IMG/VR virus record: IMGVR_UViG_3300042311_001316
Span: 32,046 to 96,045 of that record
Source of the DNA: a virus
Strand: one strand, 5' to 3'
Length of the DNA stretch: 64,000 nucleotides
A program made the translations under genes and the position numbers. The notes under the pieces were generated by a model. That model did not search any database. It saw nothing but the letters and a program-made list of their open reading frames with translations, and was not told where the DNA came from. Shown here one piece after another: positions 1,744-60,928 of this stretch (position 1 is its first letter; each line of letters opens with the position of its first letter).

Positions 1744-3113
1744 ATTCTAATTCTCCAAAAACCAACATCATAAATTCCATCTATTGCATACACCCATTCT
1801 TTACCAGTAAATTTTAATTGTTTATTGTCATAAAGATTTGTAACATATTGAATTCTATATTCATTTTTACTATCAAAACTAACAATCCAATTGGTGCCAT
1901 TAAATTCTATAATATCATTTGTATTGGCTTTAAATCCCCAAATTGCATTTTCTGAAATATCTTCTAATATCATAAATCGATCACCAGAAGAAAAATTAAA
2001 TTTTCCATCGCCTGGAAATGTTTTTAATGGATCAATAATTGCAGTAATATTTTGTAATGTGTTATCTGGCAAAGTAGCTAATCTTGGAACCCATAATAAT
2101 TTATTTTTTTCATTTGGATGATAATCAATTATACCAATTATATCACTATCCCAAATATTAACATCAGAAGTTGTTTTAATTCTAATATTACTATATGGTG
2201 GCTGAATATTTCCATAAAAAGCAATTAATTTTTCCCATTCATAAATATTACCATTTTCATCTTTATCTAAACCAGTTGGCCCTAATAGTTTTAATTCATT
2301 TCCTTCAACAGAAATTCTGTGCATACCAGGACTTACAAACTGTTGATACATTTCTTGTGAACCAATAATTTCATCCATGTCAAAATTCATATCAGGATCA
2401 CTTGGATTATGATTTATTTCACTTGCTTGATTTATATTATTATTAACTTGATGAACAATTTGTTGATTGAGTTTTTTAACTGGTGGCTGAATCCACATTG
2501 GTAATAAAAAGGTTAACGTTAAAATATCAATTTCATCGGCTGTTCCTAAAGGAAAAGTTCTTGAACTCCAATTTATATCTTGCAAAGTTGCTAAAGTTAA
2601 AGCAGTCCAATCTAAAGGATTATCGGAATTTTGTATATCAAATCCAACATTAAACAAAGAATAAATTTGTTCAAAAATTTGATGTTTTTGTAATTCATTG
2701 CTTGTCCAAATATTAATTGTAAAAGTAAGATTTAATGGATGCGCCATTGGTTTTAAAACACTATAACTTAATCCTTGTTCAGTTGAATACGTTCCAGTTG
2801 TTTTATCAATCAAACGTTCACTAACATCATCTTGTTTAATTAAAGAAGGAACTTGAGTATTGGCACGAATTGGCTTTACATCTTGAACTTCAACGGTAAT
2901 TTGAGGAATTGTTAATACAACATTTTCACTATTTTTTCTTAAAATATGTGCAACTTGACGATCTTTAGTAGCCAAATAACAAGGAATTAAAGGTTGTTCT
3001 TTAATTCCTTCTCGATATCCAGTTTCATAAACTAATCCAGAAAATCCTTTACAAATTTGATTTAAAAAACGGCGAATTTGGCCTGAATAAAAGTAATCGT
3101 ATTTTTTTTCCAT
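1740..3113 (-). CDS. 15: T4 gp15-like proximal tail terminator / sheath stabiliser
   Basis: The N-terminus YDYFYSGQIRRFLNQICKGFSG matches the T4 gp15 signature, in which an aromatic-rich YFY segment is followed by RR and an F-S motif. It is followed by the expected alternation of strands (PLIPCYLATKDR, LTIPQITVEVQDV) and the NLTFTINIWTSNELQKHQIFEQIYSLFNVGFD and FLLPMWIQPPVKK segments typical of this family. T4 gp15 caps the tail tube and sheath and forms the interface to the neck. At 457 residues it is much longer than T4 gp15 (272); the extra C-terminal part from about residue 240 (FYGNIQPPY and two GFK/GKEW segments) may be an added decoration domain. It lies near the gp14-like gene. Confidence 0.75.
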   Translation of the reverse strand: MEKKYDYFYSGQIRRFLNQICKGFSGLVYETGYREGIKEQPLIPCYLATKDRQVAHILRKNSENVVLTIPQITVEVQDVKPIRANTQVPSLIKQDDVSERLIDKTTGTYSTEQGLSYSVLKPMAHPLNLTFTINIWTSNELQKHQIFEQIYSLFNVGFDIQNSDNPLDWTALTLATLQDINWSSRTFPLGTADEIDILTLTFLLPMWIQPPVKKLNQQIVHQVNNNINQASEINHNPSDPDMNFDMDEIIGSQEMYQQFVSPGMHRISVEGNELKLLGPTGLDKDENGNIYEWEKLIAFYGNIQPPYSNIRIKTTSDVNIWDSDIIGIIDYHPNEKNKLLWVPRLATLPDNTLQNITAIIDPLKTFPGDGKFNFSSGDRFMILEDISENAIWGFKANTNDIIEFNGTNWIVSFDSKNEYRIQYVTNLYDNKQLKFTGKEWVYAIDGIYDVGFWRIRI

Positions 3114-3128
3114 TATATTATTTCCATA

Positions 3129-3860
3129 TTAAACTTCATTTAGAACTTTGCCTTTTAAAGAATTAAATTTTTTAAATAATAAATCATTCATTTCTTTTAC
3201 GTTTTTTAAAATTATCTCATTATCTGTATTTGCTTTAATTTCACCTTTAATTAAATAAAGCGCAATTAATTCTATGCCTAATTCACCTGTATTTCTTAAT
3301 GAGAATTTATCTTTTTTCCAAGAACGAAAAGAAAATAAATCATCAAAACTATTATCTTTATAAAATATCGTGTTTTTACTTTTTAAAATCGTATTAATAC
3401 ATGACATAACTTTATCAGTAAAAGAATTAATATCATATACATCGTCAACAATAGAATGACCAATTTTATGCGCTAATATCCAAGGAGTCATTGGTAATCG
3501 GTCATTGGGTGATAAATTTCCCAATGAAACAAACGTAATAACTCCCGGTTTACCGTTTATTTTATTTTTATTAAAGTTAACACTTTTAGTGAATTTTTTA
3601 TCTGGAATAAAATCTCCTATATCCGCATTATCTTTTTTAGAACTAGCATCAAAATTATCATGATAAAGAAAAACTATGTCAAAAACAAAAGGTGTATTTT
3701 TAAATGCATCTTTTATTCGTTTTTGATATTTTTCTGTTTGCAACATTTTAATTTCACCAGGAGTAAAATTAGTTGCTGTTGAAACATTTCCGACATGCGA
3801 AATATCTTCAATTGGGGCTTCTTTTATAAAATCTAAATATTCTTTTAATAATTTATTCAT
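3129..3860 (-). CDS. Hypothetical protein with HKIGH (HxxxH) motif
   Basis: 243 residues. The centre reads MTPWILAHKIGHSIVDDVYD, which resembles a zinc-peptidase HExxH helix but with Lys in place of the catalytic Glu. Some metal-binding phage proteins share such an HxxxH helix, so it may bind metal without being a protease. The N-terminus (MNKLLKEYLDFIKEAP) looks like a short amphipathic tag. It sits between the gp15-like and lysozyme genes; its ATG overlaps the lysozyme stop. A structural or head-tail role is possible but unproven. Confidence 0.65.
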   Translation of the reverse strand: MNKLLKEYLDFIKEAPIEDISHVGNVSTATNFTPGEIKMLQTEKYQKRIKDAFKNTPFVFDIVFLYHDNFDASSKKDNADIGDFIPDKKFTKSVNFNKNKINGKPGVITFVSLGNLSPNDRLPMTPWILAHKIGHSIVDDVYDINSFTDKVMSCINTILKSKNTIFYKDNSFDDLFSFRSWKKDKFSLRNTGELGIELIALYLIKGEIKANTDNEIILKNVKEMNDLLFKKFNSLKGKVLNEV

Positions 3861-34757: not shown

Positions 34758-34783
34758 GATTTGCAGCTAATTAGCTGCAAATC
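34758..34783 (-). terminator. Rho-independent terminator of the AAA+ gene
   Basis: 13-base perfect arms (GATTTGCAGCTAA and complement) containing the AAA+ stop codon, followed on the minus strand by TTTTATAAGG. Confidence 0.65.
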
Positions 34784-36878
34784 CAAATTGTTTAGTAAAT
34801 TCTTTTTTATTTTCCGATTCAATTTTCAAAAGAATTTCTGGTGTTTCTGTTGCACCAAAATCAATAAATTCTTTTACTGTTTCAAAATCGCCAGGAGCTA
34901 AAACATATTGATCATTAAGAATAAATTCATCGGGTTCTCGATCCCAATACATTTTAAACATTTTTAATTTTTGATCTTTGTTCATATAATTAAATTTAAT
35001 CTTAATTTGAAACCGTCTTAAAAATGCTTGTTCTAAAGATTTTTCATAATTGGTTGTAATTGCAAAATCGCATTTACGCAATTGTGTTTGAACTAAAAAT
35101 TCATTTGCAATACTTTTCATATATTCGGCGCTTTTACCTTCTTTATTTGTTAAGAAAGTTTCAGCTTCATCAATTAATAAAATTGAATCTTCTTGATAAG
35201 CTTGTTCAAAACTTTCGGCAATATTTTGTTCAGTTTCTCCATAATAAGCAGAAATTAAGTCACTTGGTTTTTTAACCAAAACATTTTTGTTAAATTTTTC
35301 ACCTAAATAATGAACTAATTGACTTTTACCTGTTCCACTTGGGCCTGATAAAAGCATATTCCATTTTTTATCAACTGATTTTAATTGATCAACAATTGAA
35401 TTAACATTAACGTTTGTATTCAATAAACTAAGATCATAAACTTTTGAAGCTTCGGTTAATTTAAATTCTCGTTTACGCCCCCAACGATTCATACGGTCGA
35501 TTTGTTGAACAACATCAATTACGTTTTCTTTTGGGTTTAAAGCGATAATTTCACAAACTCGTTGAATATCCCAAGGAGTAATGTCGAATGTTTTTGCAAA
35601 TTGTTTCTTTTGTGTTTCATTAAAGATTTTTTCACCGTATTTATTCCAAGTTTTAATGCGTGTTTTTGCACTATGAACTTTAAATTCGGCTGTATATTTC
35701 ATTCTTCTTAAAAATGAAGTTTCCATATAAACATGATTGGCAGTAAAGATTGTTGGGATTGTTGCTTTTTCTAATAAATTATTAACAAACAATTTACTAA
35801 ATTCTTTATCTTCTCTTGTTAAATCTTCTAATTCATCAAAAAGCAAAATAGTATTTTTTTTATTTTTAAAGAATTTTTGAGCTAACACAAAATCACCCAA
35901 GCGCTGATCTCTTTTCTTTTCACCCAATGAACTTTCGCCAACTCGAATTAATTTATATCCAAGAGAGTTTGCTAATGCGCCTGCATATTCGGTTTTACCT
36001 GTTCCTGGTTTTCCCCATAATAAAAAGTTTGTTCCGCGATCATTTTTCTTAATTAAATTTTTAAAAATATTATGAGGAATTGTATCATCATAATCATCTA
36101 AACTTAATACTGATTTTTGATCAGTTGGGAAGAAAATATTTTCAATATCTTTTTTATTGATTTCAGGTGTATCTAAAATTTGTTTTAAACGGTCATCAAA
36201 TTCAAATGATAAACAACTAAACATCATATCAGATTGTTGATAAGTTTTTTTGAAAAACCCAAAACGAAACAAATCAGTATTGCCTAAAAGAATATTTTTT
36301 ATTTTTTGTTGATCAACTTCAAGAACAATTGATAATGCGCGATAATCGCTACCAATTTTCTTAATAAAATAATCAAGATATTCTTTTACGTACCAAAGAG
36401 TTGTTTGTTCATTTTCATACATTAAATAAAGTATTTTCATTTCTAATTGGTCAAGTGAAATACTTTTACCAAATTTTTTAATATTTTTTGGTAATTTAAA
36501 GTTTTCAACAAGCCAATTGTCTTTAATTGTATTAACATAAAATTCTAAATCGAAATTTTGAATAAATTGTTCATTTCTACTTTTAATAAAAATATTTTTT
36601 TGTTTACCTTCGCGCTCGCCAACTGGATTTTCTTTTTCATGTTTCATTAATTCATCTTGAAAATTTTGAAACGCTGTTTGTCCTAAAAGTTTTTCATCTC
36701 CATGTTCGAATATAAATTCTCTAATAGCAAATGGTTGTTGAACATAAAGATGATCGAATAATTTATAAAAAATATTTTTTAATAATGTGGATACAATATT
36801 CACGTCTGGTTGTCCTTTACCTAAAATTAATTGTCTTATCCTGTGACCATGTAATTCTTCTATTCGCATTACTTGCAT
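34767..36878 (-). CDS. Tandem AAA+ ATPase (two ATPase domains)
   Basis: Up to 703 residues (a start at 36869 is equally possible). The first ATPase domain has Walker A WGKPGTGKTEY, Walker B ILLFDELEDL and TIFTANHVYMETSFLRR; the second has SGPSGTGKSQL, ILLIDEAETFL and ITTNYEKSLEQAFLRRFQ. Both carry candidate sensor and arginine-finger residues, as in Cdc48/ClpA-type unfoldases and remodellers. The N-terminal 270 residues are unlike known domains and may bind substrate. No peptidase-docking loop is visible, so pairing with the phage ClpP is speculative. Its start overlaps the next gene by up to 62 bp. Confidence 0.75.
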   Translation of the reverse strand: MQVMRIEELHGHRIRQLILGKGQPDVNIVSTLLKNIFYKLFDHLYVQQPFAIREFIFEHGDEKLLGQTAFQNFQDELMKHEKENPVGEREGKQKNIFIKSRNEQFIQNFDLEFYVNTIKDNWLVENFKLPKNIKKFGKSISLDQLEMKILYLMYENEQTTLWYVKEYLDYFIKKIGSDYRALSIVLEVDQQKIKNILLGNTDLFRFGFFKKTYQQSDMMFSCLSFEFDDRLKQILDTPEINKKDIENIFFPTDQKSVLSLDDYDDTIPHNIFKNLIKKNDRGTNFLLWGKPGTGKTEYAGALANSLGYKLIRVGESSLGEKKRDQRLGDFVLAQKFFKNKKNTILLFDELEDLTREDKEFSKLFVNNLLEKATIPTIFTANHVYMETSFLRRMKYTAEFKVHSAKTRIKTWNKYGEKIFNETQKKQFAKTFDITPWDIQRVCEIIALNPKENVIDVVQQIDRMNRWGRKREFKLTEASKVYDLSLLNTNVNVNSIVDQLKSVDKKWNMLLSGPSGTGKSQLVHYLGEKFNKNVLVKKPSDLISAYYGETEQNIAESFEQAYQEDSILLIDEAETFLTNKEGKSAEYMKSIANEFLVQTQLRKCDFAITTNYEKSLEQAFLRRFQIKIKFNYMNKDQKLKMFKMYWDREPDEFILNDQYVLAPGDFETVKEFIDFGATETPEILLKIESENKKEFTKQFGFAAN

Positions 36879-49707: not shown

Positions 49708-49735
49708 AAATTGGGGAATTTAATTCCCCAATTTT
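49707..49735 (+). terminator. Rho-independent terminator after gp32
   Basis: AAAATTGGGGAATT and complementary arm followed by TTTTATC, between gp32 and uvsX; probably partial, giving more gp32 than UvsX. Confidence 0.7.
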
Positions 49736-49764
49736 ATCTTTTAATTTTAATTAAGGAAAATGTG

Positions 49765-51279
49765 ATGAAACCTTTTGATCCAAGTAAGCTTATAAAAGCT
49801 GTTAATAAATCTGTACCCAATGTTAGCATTGGTTTTAATGATCCTCAAATTTGGCTTAGTACAGGCTGTTATCTTTTAAATTATCTGATATCAGGTGATT
49901 ATAAAAAAGGTATTCCTTTAGAGGGCAAAATTACCTGTGTAGGTGGTGAAAGTGGTTGTTTACCTTCAACTGCCGAAGTTATTTTAAGATCGAATTTTAC
50001 CAATAATGAAAATTTAGATTATAAAACAATAACAGTTGGTGAATTAAAAAATATTTATTTTGAAAATAAAAGTAAACAATTGCCTACATTTATTGAAACT
50101 CCTGATGGTTCACAAACAATTGTCAATTGGTTTAACAAAGGTCAATTACCTTGTGTTAAAGTAATTACTGAAAGTGGTAAAATAACAATTTGTGCAACCA
50201 ATCATATGTTAGAAACTGCAAAGGGTTGGGTATTAGCTGAAAATTCTTTAAATGAAAATGTTATTATTCTTAATAACAATCAATCATTTGAAGATAAAGT
50301 TGTAGAAGTAATTCCTTACGATACAATTGAATGTTTTGATTTTGAAATCAATCATCAAAATCATCGTTATTGGGGTGATGGATTTAGTTCACATAATAGT
50401 GGCAAATCTTATATTGTTTCGGGCAACTTAGTAAAAGACGCACAAGAAAAAGGTATTTTCGTAGTTATGTTTGATACTGAAAATGCTTTAGATGAAGAAT
50501 GGTTGCATAATTTGGGCGTTGATACTGATCCTAGTAAATTAATGCGAATTAATGTTGCTATGATTGATGATGTTGCCAAAACTACTACTAAAATTTTAGA
50601 TGAATATAAAGAAACATTTGATGGTGTTCCTTATAATGAACAAGCTCCTATTCTTTTTATTATTGACAGTTTAGGAATGCTTATTACACCAAACAATGAA
50701 CGGCAATTCGAAGAAGGTGACATGAAAGGCGATATGGGCATTAAAGCAAAACAATTAACTGCTTTAATGCGTGGTATAAGTGCAAAAATTGCAAATAAAA
50801 GAATTGGTATGATTTGTACCAATCACGTTTACGCTGCACATGATCAATATTCACCTGATACATTAGCTGGCGGTAAAATGGTTGAGTATGCTACTAGCAT
50901 TATTATCCAAATGAATAAACTTTTATTAAAAGAAGATGAATTTGGTAATAAATTAACTGATGGCGCGGTAGCTGGTATTCGTAGTAGTGTTGTAGTTAGA
51001 AAAACACGTTATAACAAACCATTTGAAAAAATGAAAATTGAAATTCCATATGAACAAGGCATGAATCCTTATTCTGGATTATTTGATTTCTTATTTAGTA
51101 GAAATATTTTAGTTAAAGAAGGTAATCGATATTCTTATACTTCACCAGTAACAGGTGAAATTTTAAAAGATTTTCGTAAGAATTTCAAATATGAATGGTT
51201 AGATCAAATTATGGAAGAATGGTCTCATTGGACAAAACATGTTGAACAAGTAGCACCAGTTGAAATAGTAGAAGATTAA
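49765..51279 (+). CDS. uvsX: UvsX recombinase interrupted by an in-frame mini-intein
   Basis: 504-residue precursor starting at the ATG at 49765 with AAGGAAAAT upstream. An earlier frame start at 49711 lies in the gp32 terminator and is rejected. Exteins join to a 357-residue UvsX/RecA-type ATPase. The Walker A loop, GGESG...SGKSYIVSG, is restored only after removal of residues 65-211. VVMFDTENALDEEW, ILFIIDSLGMLITPNN, RGISAKIANKRIGMICTNHVYA and AGGKMVEYATSIII are the Walker B, L1/L2 and later RecA motifs. UvsX pairs homologous strands with gp32 and UvsY. Confidence 0.9.
   Translation: MKPFDPSKLIKAVNKSVPNVSIGFNDPQIWLSTGCYLLNYLISGDYKKGIPLEGKITCVGGESGCLPSTAEVILRSNFTNNENLDYKTITVGELKNIYFENKSKQLPTFIETPDGSQTIVNWFNKGQLPCVKVITESGKITICATNHMLETAKGWVLAENSLNENVIILNNNQSFEDKVVEVIPYDTIECFDFEINHQNHRYWGDGFSSHNSGKSYIVSGNLVKDAQEKGIFVVMFDTENALDEEWLHNLGVDTDPSKLMRINVAMIDDVAKTTTKILDEYKETFDGVPYNEQAPILFIIDSLGMLITPNNERQFEEGDMKGDMGIKAKQLTALMRGISAKIANKRIGMICTNHVYAAHDQYSPDTLAGGKMVEYATSIIIQMNKLLLKEDEFGNKLTDGAVAGIRSSVVVRKTRYNKPFEKMKIEIPYEQGMNPYSGLFDFLFSRNILVKEGNRYSYTSPVTGEILKDFRKNFKYEWLDQIMEEWSHWTKHVEQVAPVEIVED
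49957..50397 (+). other. Mini-intein (147 residues) in the UvsX Walker A loop
   Basis: Begins with Cys (CLPSTAEVILR, block A), has a block B-like GQLPCVKVITESGKITICATNHML with the conserved His, and ends with a block F/G FDFEINHQNHRYWGDGFSSHN and Asn, followed by Ser as +1 extein nucleophile. The usual TxxH of block B reads AxxH here. No LAGLIDADG or HNH segment is present, so it cannot home by itself. Splicing joins GGESG to SGKS, making ATP binding depend on intein removal. Confidence 0.9.
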
Positions 51280-51317: not shown

Positions 51318-51611
51318 ATGTTTGATAAAAATTTAGAATTTTTAATAAAATTTATACCTAATAAATCATTTAGAGAATTTATTAATGATGAAATTATTAT
51401 TGTTAGAATACAAAACCATTCAATACAAATTTTTAATTATCCAAACGGAGAAGAAAATATAATTTTTAAATCATATATTAAAGATGATAATTTAATAAAA
51501 GAAATTAATACAAATATTGATATTGAAAAATTAATTAATGATATTACGGGTTTGCTTATAGCATCGGATTTGTCATGGTGGAAAATCTATAGCGCTTATA
51601 TAAGATTATGA
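51318..51611 (+). CDS. Hypothetical protein
   Basis: 97 residues, preceded by AAGGAAAAAT. FLIKFIPNKSFREFINDEIIIVRIQNHSIQIFNYPNGEENIIF then an amphipathic helix region and a hydrophobic GLLIASDLSWWKIYSAYIRL end. Its stop overlaps the convergent family copy 14 by 6 bp. No family recognised. Confidence 0.6.
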   Translation: MFDKNLEFLIKFIPNKSFREFINDEIIIVRIQNHSIQIFNYPNGEENIIFKSYIKDDNLIKEINTNIDIEKLINDITGLLIASDLSWWKIYSAYIRL

Positions 51612-51914
51612 ATATTTTAAAAGCATTTCAATTTGAAAGGAATTGTCTTGATTTGGATGTATTGATAACCATTTATGAATATTATCATAAAAATAATCAT
51701 CTATCCAAAATTGAATTTTTCCGTTAAAACAAATTCTTGCTGGTCCTGTTAATCGATGCCATCGCCATCCTTTTTCACACCAAAGTTTTTCACCTGTTTC
51801 TAAAACTTCATAAGCAGGTGTATTTTCATCAGGAGAGGAAATTTCATCAAAAGGAATTGTATTGTAATTATCGGTTGTAAATTTTTTATTATCAATATAA
51901 TAAATATATCTCAT
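51606..51914 (-). CDS. HRLTGPA-family protein, copy 14 (short tail)
   Basis: 102 residues (MRYIYYIDNKKFTTDNYNTIPFDEISSP). Core RWHRLTGPARICFNGKIQFWIDD (FNG in place of DG); WLSIHPNQDNSFQIEMLLKYS tail. Confidence 0.8.
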   Translation of the reverse strand: MRYIYYIDNKKFTTDNYNTIPFDEISSPDENTPAYEVLETGEKLWCEKGWRWHRLTGPARICFNGKIQFWIDDYFYDNIHKWLSIHPNQDNSFQIEMLLKYS

Positions 51915-55388: not shown

Positions 55389-56570
55389 ATGGCTAAAAAA
55401 ACATCAATGAGCGCTACATCACTAACACAAGTTAAACCAAGTCAACTTGTAAAATTTTTACAAAATCAGCGCCGTTCAAAAACTACAGTTATGATTTGGG
55501 GTGCCCCAGGCATTGGTAAAAGTTCACTTGTACGTGATTATGCTGATTCAATTTATGGTATTCGTAACGGCAAACAAGTACAATATCGATTAGTTGATAT
55601 TCGCCTTGCACAAATGGAACCTACCGATCTTCGTGGTATTCCAATTCCAGTTACCATTAGTGATCCTGATCTTGCTAAAATGGCTGGTGTTAAAGAAGGC
55701 ACTACTGTTATGGTTAAATGGGCTTCACCTGAAATGTGGCCTACTGAAAACGACGCACCAACAGTTATTTTCTTGGATGAAATGAATTCTGCACAGCAAA
55801 CAATTCAAGCTGCTGCTTATCAAATTCTTCTTGATCGTGGGATTGGTGAACTTCGTTTCCCTGAAGATACTATCATCGTCGCTGCTGGTAATCGTGAAAC
55901 TGACCGTGGCGTAACATTCTCTCTTCCAACTCCGGTTCGTAATCGTGTTGCTCACGTTGAATTAATTTTTGACTTTGAAGAATGGCGTACAATTGCAACT
56001 AATAAGAATTATCATGCTCTTGTAATTGGTTATCTTTCAAAGTTTACCGATGCAACCGATGAGTTTGACCCTACTTCTTCAGAAAACGCATTTGCTACGC
56101 CCCGTACATGGCAATTCGTTTCTGATTCATTAAATGCAAATCCTGATTTGCTTGATGATCCAATTAGTTTAGGAATTGACGTTGCTTCAAAAGTTGGCAC
56201 TAAACACGCTATTCCTTTCGTTGCACACGTAAAAGATGCAAATCGAATTCCTGCACCAGAAGATATTTTCACTGGTAAAATTAAGAAAATTGGTGAAAAA
56301 CTCGACGTGGGCATTCAATGGACTCTTGTTACCATGCTTATTCAAGCATTGCGTAAAATTCCTGATAATGAAAAAATTGATGCAAAAACAAAAAACAAAT
56401 ACGGGGAAAATTTCCTACAATTTGTTACAGTTAATTTCTCTAAAGAATACAACATTTTAGTTGCACGTACTGCAATGAAAGACAAAATTATTGCAGACGG
56501 CTTTGTTTGGCGTGATATGCAAATCATGACTGATTGGGCGAATGAATACGGTCCTTACATTCGTGGTTAA
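55389..56570 (+). CDS. MoxR-type AAA+ ATPase
   Basis: 393 residues, CAGGAG ribosome-binding site. Walker A WGAPGIGKSSL, then YRLVDIRLAQMEPTDLRGIP, Walker B TVIFLDEMNSAQQTIQAAAYQILLDRGIGEL, sensor 1 IIVAAGNRETDRG and RVAHVEL. MoxR ATPases act as chaperones or activators with a VWA-domain partner, which is encoded two genes downstream. The C-terminal region (DIFTGKIKKI to the end) is duplicated in the next gene. Less AT-rich codon use than the flanking small genes. Confidence 0.85.
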   Translation: MAKKTSMSATSLTQVKPSQLVKFLQNQRRSKTTVMIWGAPGIGKSSLVRDYADSIYGIRNGKQVQYRLVDIRLAQMEPTDLRGIPIPVTISDPDLAKMAGVKEGTTVMVKWASPEMWPTENDAPTVIFLDEMNSAQQTIQAAAYQILLDRGIGELRFPEDTIIVAAGNRETDRGVTFSLPTPVRNRVAHVELIFDFEEWRTIATNKNYHALVIGYLSKFTDATDEFDPTSSENAFATPRTWQFVSDSLNANPDLLDDPISLGIDVASKVGTKHAIPFVAHVKDANRIPAPEDIFTGKIKKIGEKLDVGIQWTLVTMLIQALRKIPDNEKIDAKTKNKYGENFLQFVTVNFSKEYNILVARTAMKDKIIADGFVWRDMQIMTDWANEYGPYIRG

Positions 56571-56601
56571 AAATTAGGAGAGATTTAATCTCTCCTAATT
56601 T
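56571..56601 (+). terminator. Rho-independent terminator after the MoxR gene
   Basis: 15-base arms AAATTAGGAGAGATT and complement around one T, followed by an AT-rich run. Confidence 0.7.
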
Positions 56602-56618
56602 ATTCATAGGAGTTTTTA

Positions 56619-57170
56619 ATGGAAGAAATGTTATTAAAAATTAAAACATCGATTATTTTATTTAAAAATCCAGAATATAGATTTTTTGTTTCTAATTTAA
56701 AAAATGTTGGTAATTCTATGGTTGATAATTTTAAAATTGAAAATAATATTTTGTTTTATAATCAAAATATTAAACAAAAATCATTTTCTGAATTAATCGA
56801 TTTATTATTAGAAGAAATTAAAATTAAATTTGTTGAACCAGATTTAACTTTAAAAGATAGTATCTCAGCAATTGATGTATTTTCTGGTAATATTAAAAAT
56901 TTTAATTCAAAAAATCCTTTAGGATTAATTTCATTTCTTCTTAAAGAATTTGAAACAATTATTCAAAATAATGAAATTGACAAACAAGTGAAACAAGAAT
57001 ATGCTAATAATTATTTAGAATTTATTATGAATAATTTTTCTTATGAACATAATATATTAAATTCGCGTTTAATAATGTCAAATAAAACATTATGTTATGG
57101 CGTTGATTATAGGGATTTAACTTCTATGAAAAAACTTGCAGAAAAAGTTGGAAAATATTTACGTAATTAA
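56619..57170 (+). CDS. Chimeric protein: VWA-partner N-terminus fused to MoxR C-terminus
   Basis: 183 residues. Residues 1-70 (LLKIKTSIILFKNPEYRFFVSNL, NNILFYNQNIKQKSFSELIDLLLEE) align with the N-terminus of the VWA protein (IMKAKSFIMMHNPFMAPLIASL, LRLYYNRDFVLKRPIGELIFICAHE) but lose its HExxH. Residues about 85-183 (DVFSGNIKN, YANNYLEFIMNNFSYEHNILNSRLIM, YRDLTSMKKLAEKVGKYLRN) align with the MoxR C-terminus (DIFTGKIKK, YGENFLQFVTVNFSKEYNILVARTAM, WRDMQIMTDWANEYGPYIRG). No ATPase or MIDAS motif remains. AGGAG is upstream. Confidence 0.75.
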   Translation: MEEMLLKIKTSIILFKNPEYRFFVSNLKNVGNSMVDNFKIENNILFYNQNIKQKSFSELIDLLLEEIKIKFVEPDLTLKDSISAIDVFSGNIKNFNSKNPLGLISFLLKEFETIIQNNEIDKQVKQEYANNYLEFIMNNFSYEHNILNSRLIMSNKTLCYGVDYRDLTSMKKLAEKVGKYLRN

Positions 57171-57197: not shown

Positions 57198-58442
57198 ATG
57201 GCAAATGATCCAGTTGAAGTTATGATTATGAAAGCTAAAAGCTTTATCATGATGCATAACCCTTTTATGGCCCCACTTATTGCTAGTTTAATTTCTGTTG
57301 ATGCTTCTACTTGGCTTCAAACGATGGCAACCGATGGTTTAAGATTATATTACAATCGAGACTTTGTTTTAAAACGTCCAATTGGCGAATTGATCTTTAT
57401 TTGTGCTCATGAAGTTTTACATTGTGCATATGATCACATTGGGCGCGGGTATGGTAGTTATGATCGTAATATTATGAATATGGCGATGGATTATCGTATC
57501 AATTACGATATTGTTGCATGGAATGAAAAACTCAGTAAAGACAAAGTATTAGGAGTTTGTCCTAAAGATGCACTTTACGATAAAAAATACGATGAAGATT
57601 GGGTTTCTGAAGCAATTTATCATGACCTTATGAAAAATTCAGTTTCATTTAAAGTTGGTTTTGATGAACACCTTGATTTAGAAGGTGGTGAAGGTGAAGA
57701 TGAAAACGATGGTGATGGTAAAGAAGGCGCAACCGTTACAGTTTTGGGGAAAAATGGTCCACCAAAATTAAGTGCAGAAGAAATTGAAAAAATGCGACAA
57801 GAAGTTCGTAATCGTGTTATTTCTGCTGCTGTTGCCGCTGGTGCAGGCAATGTTCCTGCTGGTATCCAACGAGCATTAGGTGAATTACTTGATCCTAAAT
57901 TAGATTGGCGTAGCTTACTTGAATGCTTTGTAAAATCAATGCTAAAAAGCGACTATACATTTACACGCCCAAATCGCCGTAGTTGGAGTATGCCCGGTGG
58001 TATTATTTTACCAGGACAAAAAAACGATACTACAGTAAAAGTGCATTGTTGCATTGATACATCTGGTTCTATGACTGATGAAATGCTTCGTGAATTTTTA
58101 TCAGAAGTAAAAGGCATTATGACGCAGTTTAAAGATTTTGAACTTTATCTTTGGACTTTCGACACTCGTGTTTATAACTTCCAAAAATTCACTATGGCAA
58201 ATGCTAATGATATTGATTCATATGTTCCTGGTGGCGGCGGTGGTACAAGTTTTGAAGTTAATTTTGATTTTATGAAAGAAAATCAAATTGTTCCTGATCG
58301 ATTTGTAATGTTTACTGATGGTTATCCAAATGATAGCTGGGGTGATCCAAATTATTGCGATAGCTTGTTTATTGTTTATGGACAAGGGGCACCAAAATCA
58401 CCATATGGACAAACTGTTCCTTATGAACGTTTAGGGAAATAA
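57198..58442 (+). CDS. VWA-domain protein with HExxH metallopeptidase-like N-terminus
   Basis: 414 residues. FICAHEVLHCAYDHIGRG (His71, Glu72, His75) is a zinc-peptidase-like helix, and AMDYRINYDIV follows, typical of the DUF2201 N-terminal domain. A Gly/Asp/Glu-rich linker (about 150-180) leads to the VWA domain with MIDAS motif CIDTSGSMTDE and later VMFTDGYPNDSWGD. Such proteins pair with MoxR ATPases; target unknown. GAGG-type ribosome-binding site. Followed by a terminator. Confidence 0.8.
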   Translation: MANDPVEVMIMKAKSFIMMHNPFMAPLIASLISVDASTWLQTMATDGLRLYYNRDFVLKRPIGELIFICAHEVLHCAYDHIGRGYGSYDRNIMNMAMDYRINYDIVAWNEKLSKDKVLGVCPKDALYDKKYDEDWVSEAIYHDLMKNSVSFKVGFDEHLDLEGGEGEDENDGDGKEGATVTVLGKNGPPKLSAEEIEKMRQEVRNRVISAAVAAGAGNVPAGIQRALGELLDPKLDWRSLLECFVKSMLKSDYTFTRPNRRSWSMPGGIILPGQKNDTTVKVHCCIDTSGSMTDEMLREFLSEVKGIMTQFKDFELYLWTFDTRVYNFQKFTMANANDIDSYVPGGGGGTSFEVNFDFMKENQIVPDRFVMFTDGYPNDSWGDPNYCDSLFIVYGQGAPKSPYGQTVPYERLGK

Positions 58443-58472: not shown

Positions 58473-58810
58473 ATGAGTTACGTTTATTACATTGATGGTA
58501 AAAAACATCTAAGTGAAAATAGAAATGAAAAAAATTCCTTGGCTTAGAATTTCTTCACCAGATGACAATACGCCAGCATTAGAAGACTTATCTGATGGAT
58601 ATAAGTTTTGGTGTTTAAAAGGATATGTTTGGCATCGCTTAACTGGTCCTGCTGAAATTTATCCAAACGGAAATTTATTATATGGTTTGAATGGAAGAAT
58701 ATTTAGAAACATAAAAGGGTGGATTAAAAAATCATCCAAATCCAGAACTTTATTTTGATGCAATTGATTTGAATGAAACCGATAGAGTTCTTTGGTATTT
58801 GAAAAATTAG
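58473..58810 (+). pseudogene. Broken HRLTGPA-family gene, copy 17 (long tail)
   Basis: Starts ATG AGT TAC GTT TAT TAC ATT GAT GGT (MSYVYYIDGKK) but shifts frame at an A7 run near 58530 and back at an A6 run near 58730. The middle frame reads KIPWLRISSPDDNTPALEDL, WHRLTGPAEIYPNG; the last frame reads HPNPELYFDAIDLNETDRVLWYLKN. Deleting one A from each run restores the whole 112-residue protein, so either replication slippage or a homopolymer sequencing error is responsible. Confidence 0.75.
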
Positions 58811-58927: not shown

Positions 58928-59260
58928 ATGACACATGTTTATTATATTGATGGAAAGAAATTTACAACAAATAATTATGGTGATATTCCTCGGTATGAAA
59001 TTTCATCACCAAATGAAGAAACACCAGCTTATGAAGACACAATTGCTGGTTATAAAGAATGGCACGAAAAAGATTGGATTATTCATAGATTAACCGGACC
59101 TGCGAGAATTTGGCCTGATGGAAAAGAAGATTTTTATTTAAATGATAAAAGATATGAAAATGTAAAAGAATGGTTAAAGGATCATCCAAATCCCGATTTG
59201 TATTTTGATGCCTTGGGTATGAATGAAACTGATAAGGTTCTTTGGTATTTGAAAAATTAA
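58928..59260 (+). CDS. HRLTGPA-family protein, copy 18 (long tail)
   Basis: 110 residues (MTHVYYIDGKKFTTNNYGDIP). KEWHEKDWIIHRLTGPARIWPDGKEDFYLND (WH for WC); tail HPNPDLYFDALGMNETDKVLWYLKN. The only R2-linked copy where the downstream gene has a long tail. Confidence 0.8.
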   Translation: MTHVYYIDGKKFTTNNYGDIPRYEISSPNEETPAYEDTIAGYKEWHEKDWIIHRLTGPARIWPDGKEDFYLNDKRYENVKEWLKDHPNPDLYFDALGMNETDKVLWYLKN

Positions 59261-60595: not shown

Positions 60596-60928
60596 ATGAG
60601 ATACATTTATTACATTGATGGTGAAAAATTTACAACCGATAGAGAAGATATTCCTTGGGAAGATATATATTCACCTAATGATAATACATCCGCTTTTGAA
60701 AATTTATTAACTGGTCATAAAATTTGGTGTAAAAGAGGATTTATTCGTCATTGTTTAATCGGACCAGCAACAATTTGGCCTGATGGATCAGAATATTTTT
60801 TTATAAATGGTGAACCATATGAAAATATTCATGATTGGTTAAAAGATCACCCAAATCCAACATTATATTTTCATAAAATTGGAGTTTTTACAGAAACCGA
60901 TAAAGTTCTTTGGTACTTACAAAATTAA
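60596..60928 (+). CDS. HRLTGPA-family protein, copy 19 (long tail, altered core)
   Basis: 110 residues (MRYIYYIDGEKFTTDREDIP). The core is HCLIGPATIWPDG, with HRLTGPA changed at two positions; tail HPNPTLYFHKIGVFTETDKVLWYLQN. Lies just upstream of the UvsY-like gene. Confidence 0.8.
   Translation: MRYIYYIDGEKFTTDREDIPWEDIYSPNDNTSAFENLLTGHKIWCKRGFIRHCLIGPATIWPDGSEYFFINGEPYENIHDWLKDHPNPTLYFHKIGVFTETDKVLWYLQN

Follow-up and report, generated by a model that had tools for sequence, protein, structure and literature searches.

The question raised by this locus is where a short open reading frame (ORF), lying between a gene for a MoxR-type ATPase and a gene for a VWA protein, came from, and what its product may do. 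The window analyzed here (64 kb; 64,000 nucleotides) comes from a virus record of 96 kb. The ORF spans positions 56619–57170 on the plus strand, encodes 183 amino acids, begins with ATG preceded by AGGAG, and lies 48 bp 3′ of the MoxR stop codon and 27 bp 5′ of the VWA gene; all three genes are on the plus strand. Based on alignments of this ORF to both neighbours, we hypothesize that it is an intact hybrid that arose by a single tandem duplication in this phage lineage, with both parents left intact, and that its product now acts as a non-catalytic docking subunit. We give this combined reading somewhat better than an even chance.

The upstream gene (55389–56570, plus strand) encodes a MoxR-type AAA+ ATPase of 393 amino acids (PHROG 1297, E 9e-91), the apparent parent of the C-terminal half of the hybrid. 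The P-loop, DE and PR residues, which we take to be the Walker A/B and sensor motifs of the AAA+ core, are invariant in the MoxR family alignment. The downstream gene (57198–58442, plus strand) encodes a DUF2201 metallopeptidase-VWA protein of 414 amino acids, the probable parent of the N-terminal half, with matches to PF13203 (E 6e-31), PF09967 (E 7e-13) and PHROG 1314 (E 2e-97). In many phage records, and in PHROG 1314, this protein is annotated as “HNH endonuclease”, a name that is probably a propagated mislabel, the Pfam families here being the two given above. The MoxR–VWA pair itself is already known. Group 2.2 jumbo phages carry MoxR together with a vWA protein that has a metallopeptidase as its N-terminal part, and a role of this pair in virion assembly has been proposed (PMC7824862). 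Both flanking genes of the present locus fit this pair, and the adjacency of MoxR and PF13203/PF09967 genes that serves to recognize the jumbo-phage operon is found here. However, the accessible portion of that report mentions no hybrid third gene between them.

Directly 3′ of the MoxR stop codon lies a perfect inverted repeat with 12-bp arms and a 7-nt loop (56571–56601, plus strand). The stretch 56560–56630 around this 31-bp repeat folds at −19.7 kcal/mol (z −3.9), a value matched by none of 200 shuffles. Judged from its sequence, it may be a terminator-like or processing element, without a long T-run, and could end or process the MoxR message, separating the hybrid and the VWA gene from MoxR. 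The terminator scan does not include this hairpin among its listed sites, and the promoter scan returned 21 sites, with 23.9 expected.

The neighbourhood holds further features. A family of paralogues of about 105 amino acids with an “HRLTGPA” core (e.g. 51606–51914, minus strand; 58928–59260 and 60596–60928, plus strand) comprises 20 ORFs of the window; the 96-kb record has 26 matches to it and a 146-kb sister record 43, a few of these matches being pieces of one broken copy. Two members lack matches both in PHROG (at E 0.01) and in Pfam (above cut-off), and one member has no match in 50,697 phage records. The family is a striking lineage-specific expansion. One copy, located just 3′ of the VWA gene (58513–58807, plus strand), is present as two pieces in different frames. 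At 49711–51279 (plus strand) lies a RecA/UvsX-like gene with an apparent intein, its best RecA match starting at residue 226; the intein site is presumably the P-loop.

The initial annotation described the ORF as a chimera with a VWA N-terminus and a MoxR C-terminus, from alignments of its two ends. For the C-terminal half this is well supported. Residues 85–183 (56871–57167, plus strand) correspond to the C-terminal helical domain of MoxR (about residues 291–393). BLASTP aligns residues 86–183 with residues 292–393 of the window's own MoxR at 35% identity over 102 amino acids (72 bits, E 2e-18). The Smith-Waterman score of 172 compares with a maximum of 69 in 2,000 shuffles, and the window MoxR is the closest sequence by this measure, the runner-up reaching 116. 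The HMM comparison that the initial annotation proposed as a check turned out positive for this half, with a MoxR profile matching at E 3.3e-9, and a C-terminal MoxR profile built without the window member still yields 31.9 bits (best shuffle 12.5). Homology of the hybrid to the C-terminal helical domain of phage MoxR proteins is present by these measures. In a tree of 58 C-terminal domains, built from few columns and with the hybrid on a long branch, the hybrid and the window MoxR group together (98/97), apart from the 56 others. AF2 modelling with MoxR rows places residues 81–180 at pLDDT 92–97, and Foldseek ranks RaK2's Gp24-like protein first among the viral matches of this half (probability 1.00, E 5e-3). 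This protein is probably RaK2's MoxR, because, going by its name, it adjoins the gp25-like VWA protein. In the conserved third of MoxR columns the hybrid is 47% identical to its parent, compared with 29–30% in the other columns. Taken together, the best match, the tree grouping and the fold argue firmly for a C-terminal half copied from this phage lineage's own MoxR.

Pieces of this kind occur elsewhere. A comparison of 4,935 ORFs of at least 60 amino acids with the MoxR/VWA set returned, at E <1e-4, the copies of the hybrid, one ORF each in two other loci (L123 and L137) and a 703-aa AAA protein of the window (34767–36878); all other matches had E 6e-4 or weaker. In L137, a 157-aa ORF upstream of MoxR (3077–3550) has a tail that resembles the MoxR C-terminus (score 65, reached by 0 of 3,000 shuffles). 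The ORF in L123 (7390–7602), about 0.75 kb downstream of an intact VWA gene, has a tail of 25 amino acids that is 88% identical to a VWA C-terminus. In a 561-kb record (G005), a free-standing frame of about 208 amino acids with an uncertain start (locus L185, 2157–2783) matches MoxR residues 194–396 (E 1e-20), representing the lid and the C-terminal domain without the AAA+ core. Both genes of the pair are also present in full in this record, along with a VWA domain in an ORF of its own.

For the N-terminal half, residues 1–72 (56619–56834, plus strand) were probably copied from the zincin subdomain at the N-terminus of the VWA protein, with loss of the zinc ligands. Residues 1–67 align with VWA residues 6–74, co-linear from residue 1, with a Smith-Waterman score of 52 (BLOSUM62). 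This score is reached by 26 of 40,000 shuffles against the whole VWA protein and by 4 of 40,000 against VWA residues 1–90; with other matrices the corresponding numbers out of 3,000 shuffles each are 22 (BLOSUM45), 0 (BLOSUM50) and 34 (PAM250). Among decoys from the same AT-rich window, no ORF N-terminus (0/86) and three 90-aa windows (3/291) reach the BLOSUM62 score; the reverse direction gives 0/86 and 0/291, and BLOSUM45 gives 1/86 and 4/291. The second half-match is of moderate significance by shuffling, and the VWA part of the original description is suggestive, with weak profile scores. A deep VWA N-terminal profile gives the hybrid 3.8 bits, a value that 37 of 3,000 shuffled sequences and 15 of 2,273 decoys equal or exceed. 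Without the window VWA it gives 2.4 bits (at least equalled by 77 of 3,000 shuffles and 42 of 2,273 decoys). A semi-global profile score is not unusual, since 55 of 400 shuffles score at least as high, as do 9 of 86 decoys. In hhalign, the N-terminal half matches VWA at P 0.0065 but with a probability of only 5.8. Identity to VWA is 19%, 15% and 27% in the conserved, middle and variable thirds of columns, without a bias towards conserved columns. For the hybrid as a whole, hmmscan found no PF13203 match at E up to 1, nor at 0.01; the best Pfam hit of any family had E 0.16, and PHROG matches were no better than 0.075. A joint alignment (A7) was set aside because MAFFT placed VWA fragments on the C-terminal half of the hybrid.

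Structure prediction bears on the same point. With 59 VWA N-terminal rows, AF2 models residues 1–70 at pLDDT 91–96 as helix, helix, three strands and helix, and confidence drops from residue 71, where the similarity to VWA ends. This is consistency and no proof, because the input rows came from the VWA family and may steer the model. Without VWA rows, pLDDT of the N-terminal half falls to 34–69, and a helix at residues 40–51 takes the place of the strands of the other model. Viral metallopeptidase and VWA-like proteins are among the Foldseek matches of the VWA-row model (best E 1.7e-3); for neither model of the hybrid does Foldseek return anything at E 0.001 or better, the best values being 5e-3 and 1.7e-3.

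It may be argued that the ORF is a partial MoxR duplicate joined to an unrelated, AT-rich N-terminus, its likeness to VWA being a chance effect in a protein rich in Lys, Ile and Asn. The weak profile scores and the low hhalign probability are in line with this, as is BLASTP, which yields no N-terminal match between the hybrid and VWA up to E 10; 3 of 257 window ORFs exceed VWA in raw score against the hybrid, and both L137 and G005 have MoxR C-terminal pieces without a recognized VWA part in front. Against it stand the shuffle result (26/40,000), the failure of all 86 ORF N-termini to reach the score, and the co-linearity from residue 1; moreover, the ORF sits directly upstream of the VWA gene, and its model is compatible with a zincin. 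We consider chance likeness unlikely, and on this moderate evidence the N-terminal half probably derives from the N-terminal zincin subdomain of VWA.

The hybrid has a narrow distribution. The gene is present in two further IMG/VR records, with DNA 99.98–99.99% identical over 11–13 kb, and has no match in 50,697 phage records. Pattern scans, which reach close relatives only, confirmed none among 102 matches in genome contigs and gave nothing beyond the two near-identical records in viral contigs. Whole-record searches matched 2 of 6 records, again the near-identical ones, and 20 of 43 in a second set; the latter 20 were rejected as relatives of the hybrid, their open frames of 361–397 amino acids having the full length of MoxR. 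A set of 175 sequences was compared (174 loci and the window, the loci mostly drawn from the best 80 matches of the lists). Among these, the only MoxR-profile matches below 300 amino acids are the copies of the hybrid and a MoxR split in two frames (L041), and every short VWA match runs off the end of its locus. At least 133 loci, counting the window and only distinct VWA sequences, have MoxR and VWA together; among those listed, the two genes are separated by <240 bp in 79 and by ≥240 bp in 54. Fifteen of the loci listed have MoxR only and seven VWA only, some of them truncated.

The ORFs that lie between MoxR and VWA elsewhere were considered as counterparts of the hybrid and rejected. Pfam was run on 65 of the 79 listed (the hybrid included, 14 left out) and gave a mixture; the 25 families listed comprise, e.g., radical SAM (3 members), NUMOD3 and NAD synthase, but neither an AAA nor a VWA family. 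In PA5oct, a gene annotated as putative homing endonuclease lies between MoxR and VWA (L009, 2449–3945), and Vibrio phage 2.275 has a hypothetical protein in this position (L010, 2384–3895) that is 41% identical to that of PA5oct (282 aa). The intergenic spot seems to have been invaded repeatedly.

A single tandem duplication may account for the hybrid, a mechanism that we infer. Its left end would lie inside MoxR near codon 290 and its right end inside VWA near codon 74, so that the duplicated segment would consist of the MoxR C-terminal part, the gap and the VWA N-terminal part, and just an in-frame joint would be needed. The product would have the order MoxR, fusion of VWA N-terminus to MoxR C-terminus, VWA, with both parents whole and the fusion in between, and the fusion would inherit the start and the ribosome site of VWA. 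The observed gene order and the intact flanking parents agree with this prediction, the C-terminal half being firm and the N-terminal half moderate. The gaps on either side of the hybrid (48 and 27 bp) are short and AT-rich and have only an 8-mer in common. No intermediate stage of hybrid formation was found among the relatives.

The initial annotation favoured another course as the simplest, in which a complete MoxR–VWA pair was duplicated and an in-frame deletion then ran from inside VWA copy 1 to inside MoxR copy 2. This would give the identical final order and is possible, and complete tandem duplication of a VWA gene is known from one locus (L033, 1696–2934 and 3566–4864), where two small ORFs lie between two complete metallopeptidase-VWA genes and no MoxR is visible within the truncated locus. 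However, it requires two events where one duplication suffices, and is thus not the simplest. The suggested search for phages with the full duplicated pair was negative, a second complete pair being absent from all 48 records searched, many of them fragmentary, with one full-length VWA match each. We regard the two-event course as quite improbable, and prefer the single tandem duplication.

The expectation that the product keeps a full-length frame was borne out, with 183 codons, no stop and a ribosome site. The GC content of the gene is 18.7%, compared with 38.0% and 36.0% in its neighbours, and amounts to 0.29/0.19/0.08 by codon position; its third-position GC (8%) is the third-lowest of 84 window ORFs. 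At this composition, a stop-free frame of 183 codons has a chance of about 1e-9 (0 of 20,000 shuffles). A full frame at 19% GC next to a frameshifted duplicate of another gene (58513–58807) points to selection. On balance this suggests a maintained protein, as read from copies that are near-identical. A decaying remnant without function, to which the fast evolution (tree branch 2.79 versus 1.12 for the parent), the very low GC and the presence in only three near-identical records might point, is very unlikely given the intact frame and ribosome site, the codon-position periodicity and the preferential retention of conserved MoxR columns, whereas the nearby duplicate is broken.

The loss of both active sites, also claimed at the outset, was confirmed. 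Similarity to MoxR begins near MoxR residue 291, past the ATPase motifs, and Walker A/B and sensor are absent. In the VWA protein, the zinc site (HExxH and a downstream His) comprises H71, H75 and H80, invariant in nine VWA proteins. The aligned columns of the hybrid contain E65, K70 and D75, a gap of one residue separating E65 from K70, and a Glu is kept at 66; no zinc-site position can be kept, because residues 1–84 contain no His. The MIDAS (DxSxS) domain of the VWA gene lies outside the similar part, and the hybrid matches no VWA family. With these motifs absent, neither the ATPase nor the zinc peptidase activity of its parents is to be expected of the hybrid.

Likeness to known MoxR–VWA systems makes a bridging or regulatory role plausible. 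In the RavA–ViaA system of E. coli, which likewise consists of a MoxR ring and a VWA partner, the non-VWA middle domain of ViaA binds the RavA ring, and the triple-helical bundle of RavA is the proposed contact (PMC10585395). However, the accessible text of that study mentions no hybrid subunit, and the N-terminal domain of ViaA is all-helical and contains no zincin. In the rubisco activase CbbQ–CbbO, one CbbO docks on a MoxR-type hexamer via its non-VWA N-terminal region, a resemblance to the pair considered here; the region before the VWA domain has no discernible homology to characterized proteins, and in contrast to the present locus no third subunit is mentioned in the part available (PMC4660213).

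By this analogy, the hybrid would combine pieces of the regions through which the two partners make contact, and a non-catalytic docking role is favoured. As docking surfaces it would retain the C-terminal helical domain of MoxR and, from the co-chaperone, the first subdomain; with these it would tether, cap or compete for MoxR–VWA contacts, tuning the machine without performing chemistry. We propose tentatively, at rather less than an even chance, that the hybrid, itself non-catalytic, tunes MoxR–VWA assembly by docking as a bridge or a competitor. More doubtful still is the wider idea of a hybrid of the docking parts of both partners, without motor, protease or MIDAS, that was born in one step and controls assembly from within, as a competitor or a bridge.

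Chimeric genes in a eukaryote arise when the 5′ end of one gene is fused by a single tandem duplication with the 3′ end of a second gene. Those genes, however, are segregating variants, whereas the present one is an old, diverged phage gene within an operon. Our literature searches found no account of a hybrid gene formed by fusion or tandem duplication in a bacteriophage, and a search for chimeric MoxR/von Willebrand proteins in bacteriophage brought up only hypermutated antigen sensors in bacteria. If our hypothesis is true, one duplication would have created a hybrid with parts of both partners of a complex, placed between its intact parents, and this would show how a phage can obtain a regulatory subunit directly by duplication. 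The hybrid would also mark possible contact surfaces of the little-studied phage MoxR–metallopeptidase–VWA machine, an idea to which the MoxR C-terminal half standing alone in another phage (G005) also points.
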